Of a stretch of DNA of 33,650 nucleotides, positions 1 through 33,548 are shown piece after piece. Made by a program: the position numbers and the translations under genes. Source of the DNA: a virus. How positions within the stretch are numbered: position 1 is the stretch's first letter; the number at the start of each line of letters is the position of its first letter. The stretch is taken from the IMG/VR virus record IMGVR_UViG_3300032282_001580, positions 1-33,650 of that record; one strand, written 5' to 3'. Under the pieces are notes generated by a model that did not search any database, was not told the origin of the DNA, and was given only the letters and a program-made list of their open reading frames with translations.

Positions 1-123
1 AAAGTCGCTTGCGTTCCACATCGGACACCTCCACGGTTTGTTCAGGTTTTGCCCAAAACGGGGCTGGTGCTGCCTTTGGTGTTGCCAGGCCGCGGGTAAG
101 GGCTGCCATTTGCGCCAAACGGG
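1..123. repeat. Terminal direct repeat, left copy (circular join)
   Basis: Bases 1-123 are identical to 33528-33650. The DUF1376 gene reads through the join without a break, with its stop codon at 33523-33525. The window is therefore a circular or circularly permuted genome of 33,527 bp opened at an arbitrary point. An exact repeat of this length is what a graph assembler leaves on a circular contig. A real short terminal repeat cannot be excluded, but the P22-like packaging genes argue for circular permutation. Confidence 0.93.
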
Positions 124-760
124 CTTCTGACGCGGTTTTCTTGGCCGCCTGTTGCCGACGTACCCAATTGCGCCAGGTGGCCGTCCAATCGGTTTTTACG
201 CCTTTTTGGCCAGGCTGCGCGATCCAGTAGTCGCGGAACCCTTCAAACGTTTCCCGCGGATCCAGTTCGGGCCGGTGTTGGCGACAAAAAGAAACCCATT
301 CATCGGACAACGGAAAGTCAGGGGCCAAGCGCGTCCCGCGCTGGCTCTCTCTCTTTGGTTTACTGGTTAGTGGTTGTTGGTTAGTGGTTAGTTGCACATC
401 CGTTGAACAATCGTTCAACACCTGTTCAACATCCGTTGTGCTATTGTGCTTCCGACGTTCAGCGGATGCGCGACCGGCGTTGGATTTTTTCTCCAGGAAT
501 GCGCGGTACTCTGCAATTTCCTGATCGCAACGTGTGTGATGCCATCCGTTTTCGGCCAACCAAAAAAACGATTCCAACAGCAATTCCGTTTCTTCAACGG
601 TTGCGCCGATCTGAAAAGCCAACACCCTGGTGTCAGGCTTTAAAGGTTTTTCATTGTCGTAATACATCCACAACAGCCGCAAATAGGCCATTGATTGGCT
701 GTCGGTCAGCCTGGCGGTGGCCTTGATAAAGTCACCTATATGGTGCTGGTAATAGTGCAT
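1..760 (-). CDS. DUF1376-type replication initiator (lambda O-like), crosses the window join
   Basis: Translating leftward from the ATG at 760-758 gives an open frame to base 1, which continues at 33527 and stops with TGA at 33525-33523. The product is 254 residues. The N-terminus (MHYYQHHIGDFIKATARL, then YLRLLWMYYDNEKPL) matches the DUF1376 domain of phage replication proteins. Residues 106-133 form a polar linker. The C-terminal part (about 148-205) carries DFPLSDEW and a DWTATWRNWV motif typical of replisome organisers. A strong ribosome site (TGAGGA) precedes the ATG. Known members sit where lambda O does and probably bind the origin and recruit the helicase loader; the next gene (33159-33548) may be that partner. 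The linker-coding DNA holds tandem repeats that look like iterons. The family call is firm; the initiator role is inferred. Confidence 0.85.
   Translation of the reverse strand, partial: MHYYQHHIGDFIKATARLTDSQSMAYLRLLWMYYDNEKPLKPDTRVLAFQIGATVEETELLLESFFWLAENGWHHTRCDQEIAEYRAFLEKKSNAGRASAERRKHNSTTDVEQVLNDCSTDVQLTTNQQPLTSKPKRESQRGTRLAPDFPLSDEWVSFCRQHRPELDPRETFEGFRDYWIAQPGQKGVKTDWTATWRNWVRRQQAAKKTASEARLAQMAALTRGLATPKAAPAPFWAKPEQTVEVSDVERKRL
364..445. repeat. Tandem 7-bp and 11-bp repeats, candidate replication origin
   Basis: Bases 364-391 are four tandem heptamers: TGGTTAG, TGGTTGT, TGGTTAG, TGGTTAG. Bases 391-445 are five tandem 11-mers: GTTGCACATCC, GTTGAACAATC, GTTCAACACCT, GTTCAACATCC and a degenerate GTTGTGCTATT. 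GTTGAAC (402-408) and GTTCAAC (413-419) also form an inverted repeat. A pyrimidine run (345-356) borders the array. Neither period is a multiple of three, so the repeats do not reflect repeated amino acids and point to selection on the DNA. An iteron array in the middle of an initiator gene is the layout of the lambda origin inside gene O. Confidence 0.65.
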
Positions 761-863: not shown

Positions 864-1022
864 CTAGCCTTTAAACCATTTCGGACGCAACGCTTTCAAC
901 TGCCACACCCGCGCCGGTGGAACATCGTTCCCCCATTGGCTGACGGCCGCCCTGGTGATTCCCAACAGTTCGGCAAGCGCCTTGGCCGATCCAGCCAGTT
1001 TGATTGCTTTTTCTTTGTCCAT
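864..1022 (-). CDS. cro: P22-Cro/YdaS-like small HTH repressor
   Basis: A 52-residue protein running from the ATG at 1022-1020 to the TAG at 866-864. Residues 10-35 form a helix-turn-helix: AGSAKALAELLGI, then TRAAVSQWGNDVP, then RVWQLKAL. The AVSQW..xVP pattern is the hallmark of the P22 Cro family, and the length is near that of P22 Cro (about 61). It should act as a DNA-binding dimer that represses the early promoters. Four palindromes of the P22 core type (TTAAG-N4-CTTAA or variants) lie at 1032, 1079, 1115 and 2013. The -10 box of its own promoter ends six bases before the ATG, so the message is probably leaderless. No partner repressor gene was found. The function is firm; which palindromes it binds is inferred. 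Confidence 0.82.
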   Translation of the reverse strand: MDKEKAIKLAGSAKALAELLGITRAAVSQWGNDVPPARVWQLKALRPKWFKG

Positions 1023-1028
1023 CTTCCG

Positions 1029-1057
1029 ATGTTAAGCGGCCTTGCGTTGTGTGTCAA
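1029..1057 (-). promoter_or_regulatory. Leftward promoter for the cro-like gene
   Basis: On the minus strand TTGACA (plus 1052-1057) and TAACAT (plus 1029-1034) are separated by 17 bp, close to the sigma-70 consensus. Six bases (CGGAAG) separate the -10 box from the ATG, so the predicted start site falls on the A of the cro start codon. A palindrome at 1032-1045 overlaps the first three bases of the -10 box. Confidence 0.75.
1032..1045. promoter_or_regulatory. Operator-like palindrome in the leftward promoter
   Basis: TTAAG-CGGC-CTTGC: one perfect half-site and one with a change in the last two bases. It sits between the -35 and -10 boxes of the cro promoter, overlapping the -10 by three bases, where a bound repressor would block RNA polymerase. 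Confidence 0.6.
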
Positions 1058-1078
1058 GCGCAACAAATCCCCTCAAAG

Positions 1079-1092
1079 TTAAGGGGGCTTTA
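1079..1092. promoter_or_regulatory. Operator-like palindrome between divergent promoters
   Basis: TTAAG-GGGG-CTTTA, preceded by AG so that the left half reads AGTTAAG, which fits the ANTNAAG half-site remembered for P22. No promoter overlaps it. In arrangement it resembles the middle operator of a lambdoid right-operator region. Confidence 0.5.
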
Positions 1093-1102
1093 CAAATAGT
1101 TG

Positions 1103-1131
1103 TTGCAAGGGTTGTTAAGTTGGCTTAATAT
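1103..1131 (+). promoter_or_regulatory. Rightward early promoter 1
   Basis: TTGCAA (1103-1108), a 17-bp spacer, then TAATAT (1126-1131). The predicted transcription start is A1138, which is the A of an ATG. It drives the rightward operon beginning with the LPD29 gene at 1181. A perfect operator palindrome (1115-1128) lies inside the promoter, so repression is expected. Confidence 0.75.
1115..1128. promoter_or_regulatory. Operator-like palindrome in early promoter 1
   Basis: TTAAG-TTGG-CTTAA is a perfect 5+5 palindrome with a 4-bp centre. It fills the spacer of early promoter 1 and overlaps the first three bases of the -10 box, the same geometry as at 1032-1045 and 2013-2026. Confidence 0.7.
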
Positions 1132-1137
1132 TCAGCC

Positions 1138-1183
1138 ATGCCCTAGCGAATTGCACGGGGTCTTTTAAAAGGAAATCAAAATG
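1138..1183 (+). promoter_or_regulatory. Early leader copy 1 with a two-codon ORF
   Basis: From the predicted start the leader reads ATG-CCC-TAG, then a short spacer, GGGGTCTTTTAAAAGGAAAT and the ATG of the LPD29 gene. The same layout recurs at 2036-2072. AAAAGGA is the ribosome site and lies within the palindrome CTTTTAAAAG (1162-1171). Confidence 0.55.
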
Positions 1184-1729
1184 TCAAACGTTCAATATCT
1201 CTCTTGTGCCGAAACCGCAAAATTGGTTCGCGCCGCCCTCAAAGAATCTTTCCCTGGTGTCAAGTTCAGCGTCAAGTCCAGCGTCTATTCCGGCGGCGCC
1301 AGCATCAACATCCGTTACGAAAACGGCCCAACATACAACCAGGTCAAAGCCGTTGTCGGTATGTTCGAAGGCGCTTATTTCGACGGCATGACAGATTACA
1401 AAGGCTTGAATTACGGCAGCCTGGACGGCAACGAAGTTCGATTCGGCGCTGACTTCATTTTTGTGAATCGCAAGTTCACCAAAGCATTCCTGGAAGGTGC
1501 GGTCGAAGCGGCTTGCAAATACTACGGTTATGCAATGCCAGTTGTCACCGACGGTTACGACGGCGCTTACATCGCCGACCGGCTCGATTACGAAACCAAC
1601 CGCCGCGTCATGGCCAAGGTTGAGGAAATTAGCCTTTGCGATACCAAGGAAAGCGCCACATTGGCCCGCGTCGGCTTCCTGGGCGACGACGGTTACGGTT
1701 GGAACGCTGTTGGCCGCAAGGCCGCATAA
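1181..1729 (+). CDS. LPD29-domain protein, first early gene
   Basis: A 182-residue soluble protein. The N-terminal stretch (YLSCAETAKLVRAALKESFP, then KFSVKSSVYSGGASINIRY, then MTDYKG near residue 70) matches LPD29, a 'large polyvalent protein associated' domain. In its best-known setting LPD29 is one part of long multidomain proteins of phages and conjugative elements that are thought to enter the cell with the DNA and counter host defences. Here it stands alone with about 100 further residues of unknown type. It is preceded by AAAAGGA and is the first gene behind early promoter 1. The domain call is good; the molecular activity is unknown. Confidence 0.75.
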   Translation: MSNVQYLSCAETAKLVRAALKESFPGVKFSVKSSVYSGGASINIRYENGPTYNQVKAVVGMFEGAYFDGMTDYKGLNYGSLDGNEVRFGADFIFVNRKFTKAFLEGAVEAACKYYGYAMPVVTDGYDGAYIADRLDYETNRRVMAKVEEISLCDTKESATLARVGFLGDDGYGWNAVGRKAA

Positions 1730-1739
1730 GGGGAACGCC

Positions 1740-1838
1740 ATGAACCGCGAACCAACCGATTGGGAAGTTGTTTTGATGGCGCTGGTGGCAGCACCGGCCA
1801 TCTATGTGTTGATATGGCTTGCAATGGCCATCTTTTAA
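1740..1838 (+). CDS. Small single-span membrane protein
   Basis: A 32-residue protein starting at the ATG at 1740 behind a ribosome site (AAGGGGAACGCC). After a short polar N-terminus (MNREPTDWE) nearly all the rest is hydrophobic (VVLMALVAAPAIYVLIWLAM), one membrane helix. It lies 10 bp after the LPD29 gene and 10 bp before the next, with the same AGGGGAACG spacing signal before both, which supports real translation. The function is unknown; tiny early membrane proteins of phages often act on host envelope functions, but nothing here shows that. Confidence 0.6.
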   Translation: MNREPTDWEVVLMALVAAPAIYVLIWLAMAIF

Positions 1839-1848
1839 GGGGAACGAA

Positions 1849-2016
1849 ATGACAGTACGAATCACCAGGGTGCATCGCGGGGGCCGCGTGTTCTACGCCG
1901 CCACCGTCAGCGGCGTTTACCTGGAACGCGCCAGCCTGGCCGAATTGCGTGAAGCCATCGCGGTTCGTGAAAGTTTTTTAAGAATTTTTGCGGAACCCGT
2001 TGACACCGCAAGTTAA
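1849..2016 (+). CDS. Small early protein of unknown function
   Basis: A 55-residue protein with its start at 1849 behind AAGGGGAACGAA. It begins MTVRITRVHRGGRVFYAATV and is rich in basic residues, with a predicted beta-hairpin followed by a helix (LAELREAIAVRESFLRIF). It was not recognised as a family. Its last codons contain the -35 box, and its TAA stop lies inside the operator palindrome, of early promoter 2, so the coding end and the control signals are tightly packed. Confidence 0.6.
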   Translation: MTVRITRVHRGGRVFYAATVSGVYLERASLAELREAIAVRESFLRIFAEPVDTAS

Positions 2017-2029
2017 GTTGGCTTAAAAT
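2000..2029 (+). promoter_or_regulatory. Rightward early promoter 2
   Basis: TTGACA (2000-2005), an 18-bp spacer, then TAAAAT (2024-2029). The predicted start is A2036, again the A of an ATG-CCC-stop. It would drive the second part of the rightward operon from 2070, including the recombination genes. A perfect operator palindrome occupies the spacer. Confidence 0.75.
2013..2026. promoter_or_regulatory. Operator-like palindrome in early promoter 2
   Basis: TTAAG-TTGG-CTTAA is identical in all 14 bases to the site at 1115-1128. The upstream flank is AG, so the left half reads AGTTAAG. It overlaps the first three bases of the -10 box. Confidence 0.7.
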
Positions 2030-2035
2030 CAAACC

Positions 2036-2072
2036 ATGCCCTAACGGGTCTTTTAAAAAGGAAATTGAAATG
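2036..2072 (+). promoter_or_regulatory. Early leader copy 2 with a two-codon ORF
   Basis: From the predicted start the leader reads ATG-CCC-TAA, CGGGTCTTTTAAAAAGGAAAT and then the ATG at 2070. It differs from copy 1 by a shorter spacer and a few bases, but keeps the start codon, the CCC codon, a stop codon (TAA for TAG) and the ribosome-site block. Confidence 0.55.
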
Positions 2073-2324
2073 AATGCAAACCAATCAAACCGCGACATAC
2101 AAATGTATGGCTGCAACTTCCAAGATTTCTTGGAATCCGTTACCGATTCAATCACTTACAAATTAAGCGGCGCCAACATGGTTGTGGCTGGCTTAATGTC
2201 CGACGCCCAGGAACAAATCGCGTTTGGCGATACCGAAAACGCCCGTCAAACATTGAACCGCGCCAAAGGTGTTTTGTTTGCAATTATGGAAGGCGAATTG
2301 AACGCCAGCGGGGTGGCAGCATGA
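2070..2324 (+). CDS. Early protein of unknown function
   Basis: An 84-residue, mostly helical, acidic protein starting at 2070 behind AAAAAGGAAATTGAA. No known motif was recognised. The C-terminal part (DTENARQTLNRAKGVLFAI) looks like a TPR-like helix pair but is too short to call. Its stop overlaps the next start as ATGA (2321-2324), so the two genes are probably translated together. Confidence 0.65.
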   Translation: MNANQSNRDIQMYGCNFQDFLESVTDSITYKLSGANMVVAGLMSDAQEQIAFGDTENARQTLNRAKGVLFAIMEGELNASGVAA

Positions 2325-2979: not shown

Positions 2980-3582
2980 ATGGAAACATCATTCAGCAAA
3001 GTCGCCGCGGCCTTAGTCAAAGCGCAAAAAGAATTCGGCCCCGCGCTGAAATCATCCAGCAACCCGCATTTCAAATCACGCTACGCCGACCTGGCTGCTT
3101 GCGTTGAAGCCGTGATCGAAGGCTTGAACAACAACGGCATCGCATTGACGCAACGCGTCAGTTCATACGACAACGGCGTAATTGTGGAAACCGTGTTCAT
3201 TCACGAATCCGGCGAAGTTATCAATTGCGGCCAACTGCACGTTCCGGCCACCAAACAAGATGCCCAGGGTTACGGCAGCGCGTTGACGTATGCGCGTCGT
3301 TATAGCCTCATGGCAGCCTGTGGAATCGCACCGGAAGATGACGACGGCAACGCGGCCAGCAAACGCCCAACAGCGCCAGCAATCCCGACGCCTGACATTA
3401 CCGACCACCTGGCAGCCATCCAGGCCAGCGCCAACAGCGACGAATTGGCGGCAACATTTAAAGATGCGTTCGACGCTTGCCAGGGCAACCAGGCATTGCA
3501 AGCCAAAGTGATGGCAGCCAAAAAAGAACGCGTGGCTCGTGCCAAAAAAGAACTATCAACCAAAGGAAATGAAAATGTCTGA
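2980..3582 (+). CDS. erf: ERF-family single-strand annealing protein
   Basis: 200 residues from the ATG at 2980, preceded by AAAGGAAACAATC. The ERF core is clear: FKSRYADLAACVEAV near residues 31-45, a beta-rich middle, and the signature DAQGYGSALTYARRYSLMAA at 94-113 followed by GIAPEDDDGN. ERF proteins anneal single-stranded DNA and, in P22, circularise the linear genome after entry, which fits the P22-like packaging genes here. The C-terminal part (130-200) is an Ala/Lys-rich helical tail. The gene overlaps the exonuclease gene by 8 bp, a pairing typical of two-component phage recombination systems. Confidence 0.93.
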   Translation: METSFSKVAAALVKAQKEFGPALKSSSNPHFKSRYADLAACVEAVIEGLNNNGIALTQRVSSYDNGVIVETVFIHESGEVINCGQLHVPATKQDAQGYGSALTYARRYSLMAACGIAPEDDDGNAASKRPTAPAIPTPDITDHLAAIQASANSDELAATFKDAFDACQGNQALQAKVMAAKKERVARAKKELSTKGNENV

Positions 3583-4201
3583 CGAAATCGAACAACGCAC
3601 CGACGAATGGTTTGCCGCCCGCCTGGGCAAAGTCACCGCGTCAAAAGTGGCCGACGTGATGGCCCGCACAAAGTCGGGTTATAGCGCCAGCCGCGAAAAC
3701 TACATGGCCCAACTGGTGGTCGAACAAATCACCGGCACACGCCAGGAATCGTTCACCAACAGCGCTATGCAATGGGGAACCGACCAGGAACCCTTTGCGT
3801 CGGGCGCCTATCAGGCTGCCACCGGCAACATGGTTGACGAAATTGGATTTGTAAACCATCCAACCATTGCGATGGCTGGCGCGTCACCCGACGGCCTGAT
3901 CGGCGACGACGGATGCGTGGAAATCAAATGCCCAAACACGGCCACCATGATCGAAACGTTGCTGACCGGCGCCGTGCCGCAAAAGTATTTTGCACAAATG
4001 CAATTCCAAATGGCTTGCACCGGCCGCGCCTGGTGCGATTACGTGGTGTTTGATCCACGGATGCCAGCCAAGGCGCAACTGTTCATTAAGCGCGTACCGC
4101 GTGACGATGTGTTCATCGCTGACATGGAAGCGGAAATCATCAAGTTCCTGGCCGAAACCGCGGTCAAGGTCGATCAACTTAAAAAAATCATTGGGGAATA
4201 A
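3575..4201 (+). CDS. YqaJ-type (lambda exonuclease family) recombination nuclease
   Basis: 208 residues starting at the ATG at 3575 (a longer in-frame start at 3539 lies inside erf and is less likely). Seen here: QRTDEWFAARLGKVTASK at 7-24, which is the family's N-terminal motif, then GTDQEPFA with Glu72, SPDGL with Asp106, and EIKCP with Glu116 and Lys118. These are the PD-(D/E)XK metal ligands and catalytic lysine. The enzyme should resect one strand of double-stranded ends to give single strands for the annealing protein encoded just before it. SSB follows directly. Confidence 0.93.
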   Translation: MSDEIEQRTDEWFAARLGKVTASKVADVMARTKSGYSASRENYMAQLVVEQITGTRQESFTNSAMQWGTDQEPFASGAYQAATGNMVDEIGFVNHPTIAMAGASPDGLIGDDGCVEIKCPNTATMIETLLTGAVPQKYFAQMQFQMACTGRAWCDYVVFDPRMPAKAQLFIKRVPRDDVFIADMEAEIIKFLAETAVKVDQLKKIIGE

Positions 4202-28597: not shown

Positions 28598-29002
28598 TTA
28601 TGCTTGGCCGTGGATGATGGCGAAATTCAAAATCACGGCTTCGGCCAATGCGCCACCAGTCAGGTTTCGCAATGTCAAAACAGCGGAACCAGCGGTCATG
28701 CTTGACACGTAAGTGGTGTAAGCGGCTGCTGTGCCGCCACCGGACACGTTGATGATGATTGCGTCGTTTGTTGAAATTAGGCTGTTGGTCAAAGTGAATG
28801 ACACGGCGGTGTTTGCAGCCAATGAAGCGGCGTTCATGGTGATGCGGCCAGCGGATTTGTTCAAAGTCACGCCGGTGGATTTGTCGGTCGCTTGGGTAAC
28901 TGTACCCTGGGCGGCGGTTGAGTAACCTAATTGCTCGGTTACAAAACAGGTACTAAATTCGGGGTCGTTATAAGCGACGCCGGTTGCAATTGAATTTGAC
29001 AT
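28598..29002 (-). CDS. Beta-sandwich structural protein
   Basis: 134 residues. After an N-terminal 30 residues (SIATGVAYNDPEFSTCFVTE), the rest is a beta domain: TQATDKSTGVTLNKSAGRIT, AANTAVSFTLTNSLISTNDA, LRNLTGGALAEAVILNFAII. This module recurs as a terminal knob in phage fibre and decoration proteins. AAAGGAAATCAAA precedes the ATG, a strong ribosome site. It lies well away from the fibre genes, upstream of terminase, so a decoration or minor virion protein is likely. Confidence 0.65.
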   Translation of the reverse strand: MSNSIATGVAYNDPEFSTCFVTEQLGYSTAAQGTVTQATDKSTGVTLNKSAGRITMNAASLAANTAVSFTLTNSLISTNDAIIINVSGGGTAAAYTTYVSSMTAGSAVLTLRNLTGGALAEAVILNFAIIHGQA

Positions 29003-29027
29003 TTTGATTTCCTTTAAAAAAAGTTGT

Positions 29028-29476: not shown

Positions 29477-29737
29477 TCATTCCTCAATGATGCAAGCCAC
29501 GTCGCCTTCCTGGATCAACTGGTGGTCTTCACCGTCGATTTTGTGGACGGGCCAATCCAGGTACGTGCCATTTCCGTATTTGATGCGTTCGCCGACTTTC
29601 ACGTCGTGAACCTTGGGGCCGATGGCCACAATCGTGCCTTCGTTAAATTTTTCCTTGTTTTCCACGATCAAAACGTCCGACAAACTTCGAACAATTGGTT
29701 TGACCAGGACACGATCATGCAGCGGTGTTACCAGCAT
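29477..29737 (-). CDS. groES: Phage GroES-like co-chaperonin
   Basis: 86 residues; bacterial GroES is about 97. The start VTPLHDRVLVKPI is the GroES signature, followed by a short mobile loop with DVLIVENKEKF, then NEGTIVAIGPKVHDVKVGER, IKYGNGTYLDW and LIQEGDVACIIE, all matching the GroES beta-barrel order. The VLI/LIV tripeptide in the loop can serve as the hydrophobic contact to GroEL. No GroEL is encoded, so it would work with the host's, as T4 gp31 does for its coat protein. It lies among small genes 1.5 kb upstream of terS. Confidence 0.9.
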   Translation of the reverse strand: MLVTPLHDRVLVKPIVRSLSDVLIVENKEKFNEGTIVAIGPKVHDVKVGERIKYGNGTYLDWPVHKIDGEDHQLIQEGDVACIIEE

Positions 29738-32953: not shown

Positions 32954-33162
32954 TGAATTCGACCTCTCATTGCTGCAATATGCACCCTTTGTTGATCGAT
33001 CAATTCATCACGTTGATGGCAAACTTGTTGATACAAGTTGTATAAAGTTTCAACGCCATAAGACAATCGCCGAAGTTCGGCAGCCGCACGACATTGGGCT
33101 TCCAGGCTCGCATCGTTGCATTCAAGGTAATCGCATAATTGCAAAAGTTCTTCGCGTGTCAT
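32950..33162 (-). CDS. Small helical protein in the replication block
   Basis: 70 residues, helical throughout (TREELLQLCDYLECNDASLE, AQCRAAAELRRLSYGVETLY, QQVCHQRDELIDQQRVHIAA), with several cysteines. It overlaps both neighbours by ATGA, so it belongs to the coupled replication operon. No family was recognised. Confidence 0.65.
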   Translation of the reverse strand: MTREELLQLCDYLECNDASLEAQCRAAAELRRLSYGVETLYNLYQQVCHQRDELIDQQRVHIAAMRGRIQ

Positions 33163-33548
33163 TTTGGAAACCTCATTTTTTCTGTCATTTCGCGCAACTT
33201 GGCCAATGCTTCCTGTTTAGCCTTTTCTGTGGCAATTCGTTCGTGAACGGTCGGCTGCCTGGTTATCATCGTTTCGGGCTTGTCAGGAATGCGCGGGCCA
33301 TCGTTTAACAGTTTTTTAAATGCCAAGGCCGACGGCGGCCGGTCAGGGTTCATGTGCTGCAACGCGTAATCCATCTTTGGCCGGTATGTCAGGCCGCGGC
33401 CACATTCGTCAATCCACACCTGGCGAATCAGGTTTGGATCAACGTCGCGCCAATGGTTGGCAAACGTGGCGCCATAAATCGCGTTCATTTTGCTGAACAC
33501 GTAATCGAAGCCGCTTTCGGCATCACAAAAGTCGCTTGCGTTCCACAT
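33159..33548 (-). CDS. Possible helicase-loader-like (lambda P-type) replication protein
   Basis: 129 residues from the ATG at 33548 with a strong ribosome site (GGAGGTG). The sequence VFSKMNAIYGATFANHWRDV, then NLIRQVWIDECGRGLTYRPK and RPPSALAFKKLLNDG, resembles the N-terminal domain of phage P-type replication proteins ('F..M.AIYG..F...W......ELW...L......I......P..P.FL.L'). The end is a Lys/Glu helix. The protein lies directly after the DUF1376 initiator, overlapping its stop by 26 bp, exactly where lambda P follows O. It is short for a loader, so the assignment rests partly on position. Confidence 0.6.
   Translation of the reverse strand: MWNASDFCDAESGFDYVFSKMNAIYGATFANHWRDVDPNLIRQVWIDECGRGLTYRPKMDYALQHMNPDRPPSALAFKKLLNDGPRIPDKPETMITRQPTVHERIATEKAKQEALAKLREMTEKMRFPK

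Follow-up and report, generated by a model that had tools for sequence, protein, structure and literature searches.

The record of phage P22 gives the operator OL1 as TTAAGACTTCTTAA; on the PL strand, where the promoter is TTGACC-17-TAAATT, this operator lies over the first three positions of the -10 box. P22 has erf on its leftward side, which we liken to the Erf-type recombination gene of the phage described here. Between cI and cro of Pseudomonas phage LC3I3, which has cI, TTAAGACAGCTTAA carries the same core as the operators treated below. Cro-like genes in virulent phages are already known, and a Cro-only control region lacking an integrase or CI has precedent as well. Virulent Streptococcus thermophilus phages, judged lytic and without an integrase, keep a cro-like regulator (PMC5338259); they differ from our phage in host and phage type, and the likeness consists in a cro-like gene that goes without an integrase. 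In the cultured Pantoea phage PdC23 (NC_071008), an Erf operon and a Cro-like gene diverge, DUF4373 and P-like genes come after the Cro-like gene, and no CI gene is annotated in the 7-kb stretch examined. Its Cro is about 51% identical to ours over 45 residues, and there are no TTAAG operators between its operons. Furthermore, P22 Arc and the E. coli prophage protein YdaS, the latter considered a Cro counterpart (PMC5917428), resemble small regulators that relatives of our phage, not the phage itself, carry at the same locus. A small, partial literature search found no paper on this phage group. What is new here is a CI-free module in P22-like freshwater phages, with a predicted leaderless cro, in which regulator and operators are swapped together.

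The window, i.e. the whole stretch of DNA analysed, is an entire virus record of 33,650 nucleotides. Its terminal 123 bases are identical at both ends, which indicates a circular genome of ~33.5 kb that is probably complete. PHROGs matches include portal, scaffold, coat, Hc3 head closure, ejection protein, NinB and terminase, and on sequence the phage is a P22-like podovirus from freshwater. The early region has a lambdoid layout, with cro, a DUF1376 primosomal gene and a P-like gene on the minus strand, and an LPD29 gene, small genes, Erf and a YqaJ exonuclease on the plus strand (Table 1). The phage and P22 immC are alike in the family and fold of Cro and in the TTAAG-N4-CTTAA core on divergent early promoters, and both phages have an O-like replication gene behind cro and P22-like virion genes. 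Unlike P22, our phage is without c2, c1 (CII) and integrase, its two operator clusters have no intervening gene, and it repeats the operator at an internal second promoter. In the late region, a GroES-like co-chaperonin gene is located at 29477-29737 (PHROG 3188), and a late-gene start region at 28989-29020 (minus strand) is similar to the ribosome-binding region of the gene at 1181. No Rfam family reached its gathering score in a scan of the window.

Table 1. Features of the early control region and its flanking genes, in positions of the window. P- and P+2 were also recovered by promoter scan; P+1 was read from the sequence.
Feature	Positions	Strand	Basis
P-like helicase loader, next gene of cro operon	33159..33548	-	PHROG 109, E 3e-4
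Primosomal/O-like replication gene (DUF1376), behind cro, crosses circular junction	2..760	-	Pfam/PHROGs
cro-like regulator gene, 52 aa (MDKEKAIKLAGSAKALAELLGITRAAVSQWGND...)	864..1022	-	Pfam, predicted structure, profile search
Predicted cro promoter P-, TTGACA(1057-1052)-17-TAACAT(1034-1029)	1029..1057	-	promoter scan and reading
Operator O1, TTAAGCGGCCTTGC, 2 mismatches, over cro -10 box	1032..1045	.	motif scan and relatives
Operator O2, TTAAGGGGGCTTTA, 1 mismatch, within no predicted promoter	1079..1092	.	motif scan and relatives
Predicted early promoter P+1 (PL-like), TTGCAA(1103-1108)-17-TAATAT(1126-1131)	1103..1131	+	read from sequence; conserved in relatives
Operator O3, TTAAGTTGGCTTAA, perfect, over first three bases of P+1 -10 box	1115..1128	.	
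5' leader hairpin GCCC..GGGGUC, then UUUU and ribosome-binding site	1140..1162	+	covariation
LPD29-domain protein, 182 aa, opens plus-strand operon	1181..1729	+	Pfam LPD29, E 2e-23
Predicted second early promoter P+2, TTGACA(2000-2005)-18-TAAAAT(2024-2029)	2000..2029	+	promoter scan and reading
Operator O4, TTAAGTTGGCTTAA, perfect, over P+2 -10 box	2013..2026	.	
P+2 leader hairpin GCCCUAACGGGUC	2038..2050	+	
84-aa protein, first behind P+2, without assigned function	2070..2324	+	Pfam/PHROGs scans
Erf single-strand annealing protein	2980..3582	+	Pfam ERF, E 7e-24
YqaJ-type exonuclease	3575..4201	+	Pfam YqaJ, E 7e-32

The 52-aa product of cro scores 49.1 bits against Pfam P22_Cro (PF14549; cut-off 30.2), and a profile search of the PDB with it reaches 1rzs at E 4e-9. 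An AlphaFold2 model with four helices (pLDDT 91) has as its best PDB folds in Foldseek the DNA-bound N15 Cro 6on0 and P22 Cro 1rzs (TM 0.77; rmsd 1.0 A over ~45 residues), at E values of 0.03-0.06, which are modest for a 52-residue protein. The score above the family threshold and the like fold bear out the assignment to the P22 Cro type made in a preliminary description of this DNA, drawn from its letters. The gene is under strong constraint: over 39 usable pairs, each compared with the window, the median dN/dS of cro is 0.077, and purifying selection of this kind makes decay unlikely. A prophage search of 84,980 bacterial and archaeal species genomes gave no close relative of this Cro; relatives of the terminase are present in several genomes and bins, where the matches to the Cro-family HMM are of other types.

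Pfam and PHROGs scans likewise agree with the earlier remark that the phage has neither a C2/CI gene nor an integrase. Neither integrase (PF00589) nor S24 (PF00717) domains occur in the window or in 23 relatives, where HTH_3 matches are at sub-threshold scores only, and in the window itself there is no PHROG match that suggests a serine integrase, nor one to a repressor besides Cro. Among the PHROGs matches of the scanned window ORFs there is no CII/C1 activator, and the domain and PHROGs scans found no partition gene, CI-type C-terminal domain or antirepressor. A 119-aa protein at 31179-31538 matches a 'starvation-inducible transcriptional regulator' in PHROGs but DUF5856 in Pfam; we did not take it for a repressor. 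In 30 further records from all three regulator classes described below, integrase or S24 is found in two only and absent from 28, bearing in mind that many records of relatives are contigs of unverified completeness. These two (G063 and G064, with the loci L341 and L345) are more distant relatives with this Cro type, temperate and equipped with a full CI-Cro switch; together with L340 they carry OL-like sites, CI (218 aa), OR-like sites, cro, O and P in lambdoid order. The temperate relatives have one-mismatch versions of the TTAAG core. The arrangement in the window equals the lambdoid order minus the CI segment, with the two operator clusters joined; either direction of change fits this, and a Cro protein tree has too few columns to order the temperate and Cro-only forms.

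With at most one mismatch, the whole window has four copies of TTAAG-N4-CTTAA where 0.27 are expected (60 shuffles gave no more than 2), and the count of three within 1001-2100 was reached in 0 of 3000 shuffles. When two mismatches are allowed, the window count is ordinary (8 sites, 6.0 expected), and O1 is therefore not significant alone; it is supported instead by conservation, since 58 of 91 distinct relatives have it at the same offset (10) from the cro ATG. The preliminary description had listed the sites O1 to O4, perfect at 1115 and 2013 and as variants at 1032 and 1079, had called them P22-type, and had noted an identical geometry at three predicted promoters. The positions hold, with one mismatch at 1079 and two at 1032, each -10 box indeed shares exactly its first three bases with the site, and OL1 of P22 has an equal core and an equal overlap with the -10 box of PL when the sequences are compared. 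It had also named conservation of the palindromes as a check, and the intergenic regions between cro and LPD29 in relatives hold operators at the same places.

P+1 and P+2 have a common sequence down to the ribosome-binding site, forming a repeated promoter-leader cassette, and as such their matching geometry does not amount to two independent facts. Many relatives retain the second cassette, and in some there are three. In the loci L068, L022, L061 and L009, additional small genes have been inserted between cro and LPD29; one more operator-promoter-leader cassette lies between the inserted gene and LPD29 in L068, L061 and L009. O2 is centred ~52 bp upstream of where P+1 is predicted to start, and its centre and that of O3 are 36 bp apart. 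O2 is conserved in relatives, and the 36-bp spacing is retained in many class A loci, i.e. those with a P22-type Cro. Being located outside any predicted promoter, O2 may have a role beyond simple occlusion. We rejected by eye its being an element of a further promoter, as there is no -35 box at a suitable distance.

The -10 box of cro ends 6 nt ahead of the ATG in the window, compared with ~30 in P22, and this spacing is exactly 6 nt in 84 of the 91 distinct class A loci. A Shine-Dalgarno-like motif is absent upstream of cro in 88 of these 91. Taken together, the short spacing and the missing Shine-Dalgarno sequence lead us to predict that the cro mRNA is leaderless. At class A and class B early promoters, a small hairpin GCC[C/G]..[G/C]GGUC with UUUU occurs within a few bases of the predicted start and ahead of the ribosome-binding site. 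The fourth pair of the leader hairpin, counted from the G-U closing pair, shows covariation, being paired in 83 of 103 sequences compared with 49 in shuffles; the search pattern also collects some unrelated sequences, which dilutes the pair counts. The hairpin could serve for stabilisation of the 5' end or for attenuation.

A search with LPD29 yielded 80 loci, in 64 of which a P22-type Cro lies upstream of and divergent from LPD29, and a Cro profile search of viral contigs gave at least 484 loci. At this one locus three regulators are found: the P22-type Cro (class A), a YdaS-like HTH protein (class B) or an Arc-like protein (class C), where the names of the latter two are weak assignments, as the YdaS and RHH_5 matches are sub-threshold in Pfam. 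The palindrome TTAAGN4CTTAA occurs in 70 of 91 class A loci, at a density of 1.37 per locus versus 0.017 in shuffles, and in none of the 63 class B or 15 class C loci, all counts referring to distinct loci that share common ancestry and are not independent. In turn, TCACAN2TGTGA is present in 60 of 63 class B loci and in none of class A or C, and ATGGTN11ACCAT in 12 of 15 class C loci, two of 91 in class A and one of 63 in class B. Because both of these motifs were read from the class B and class C loci themselves, some of their abundance in their own class is circular; this does not hold for how nearly absent they are elsewhere. Two loci (L010 and L013) have an LPD29 protein 86-87% identical to that of the window, yet they carry a class B regulator, and TCACAN2TGTGA palindromes are found at both of their promoters. 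In L072-L081 an Arc/CopG-like protein takes the position of the regulator, and loci with such a protein have ATGGTN11ACCAT over the promoter that points away from it. Among the computed evidence for action of the regulator through the sites, this pairing of motif with regulator is the strongest. Within class A, no clear pattern of covariation between recognition helix and half-site was seen by eye. Two class B regulator loci (L115 and L139) lie ~6 kb apart on one 33-kb contig (IMGVR_UViG_3300020042_004684), which is either a real duplication or a chimeric contig.

We propose, at a probability of roughly three in four, that the locus encodes a Cro-only, autoregulated shut-off of two divergent early operons in a P22-like lytic podovirus. 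Upon infection, sigma-70-type promoters would fire both ways, one direction giving cro and the replication genes, the other the LPD29 gene and the recombination genes, with the second promoter at 2000. Cro, made from its predicted leaderless mRNA, would build up and bind the TTAAGN4CTTAA sites over each -10 start, barring RNA polymerase from its own promoter and from both plus-strand promoters. With these promoters blocked, the early phase would be shut off and the level of Cro would limit itself. Binding, repression and timing by Cro are what we infer from the arrangement of the genes and sites. The P22_Cro match, the sites and the absent integrase and CI support the Cro-only switch that the preliminary description had suggested for an integrase-less phage. 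Its second suggestion, a separately controlled second promoter, agrees with the position of O4 over the -10 box of P+2 and with the retention of the second cassette in relatives; this cassette would place the recombination genes under the same Cro control.

Could the single regulator instead be an immunity repressor, maintaining a carrier or episomal state, or protecting against superinfection by phages with the same operators? The cI mRNA that lambda transcribes from PRM is leaderless, as is predicted for the regulator mRNA here. Likewise, a leaderless regulator mRNA recalls the near-leaderless c2 mRNA of P22 (P22 record). The operators would block both early operons, replication genes included, and three specificities at one locus are what would be expected if a common specificity were costly. 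However, none of the integrase, partition gene, CI-type C-terminal domain and antirepressor turned up in the scans described above, and the annotated role of P22 Cro is to shut down early gene expression in lytic growth; we consider an immunity repressor unlikely.

The preliminary description had left two alternatives, a timer of early genes or the remnant of an immunity region, and it is the timer that is favoured. A decaying remnant of a temperate region that has lost its repressor, in which Cro and its sites no longer matter, would have a plausible origin in the removal of CI and the joining of the two operator regions, and the temperate counterparts (L340, L341 and L345) fit such an origin. 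Nevertheless, the low dN/dS of cro, the constant offsets of the operators across dozens of divergent phages, the joint exchange of regulator and operators, and the diversity of the Cro-only group, which is more than one deletion mutant, make this very improbable. It is likewise very improbable that the sites are occupied by a repressor of the host, or by a phage protein that went unrecognised, and that Cro has another role: Cro binding is a prediction and several early genes are without a known function, but the motif tracks the regulator class with almost no exception, and its core is that of P22, whose Cro shares the Pfam family. Overall, the circuit has the look of an early-gene shut-off kept by selection, not of a leftover.

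A wider proposal, which we put forward tentatively and hold to be possible rather than probable, is that non-lysogenic phages have an early switch with a single regulator, in which repressor and operators are replaced jointly, among three DNA-binding types. The diversity of specificities would then be kept because the repressor made by a first phage shuts off the early genes of any second phage whose operators are the same, creating superinfection immunity groups in lytic phages.

The lytic half of the lambda/P22 switch is thus found apart from its lysogenic half across a large, diverse phage group, which suggests that early-gene shut-off is worth retaining even without lysogeny. Moreover, the co-swapped regulators and operators offer a ready natural set of orthogonal repressor-promoter pairs, and the role of Cro in the lytic cycle becomes a directly testable question.
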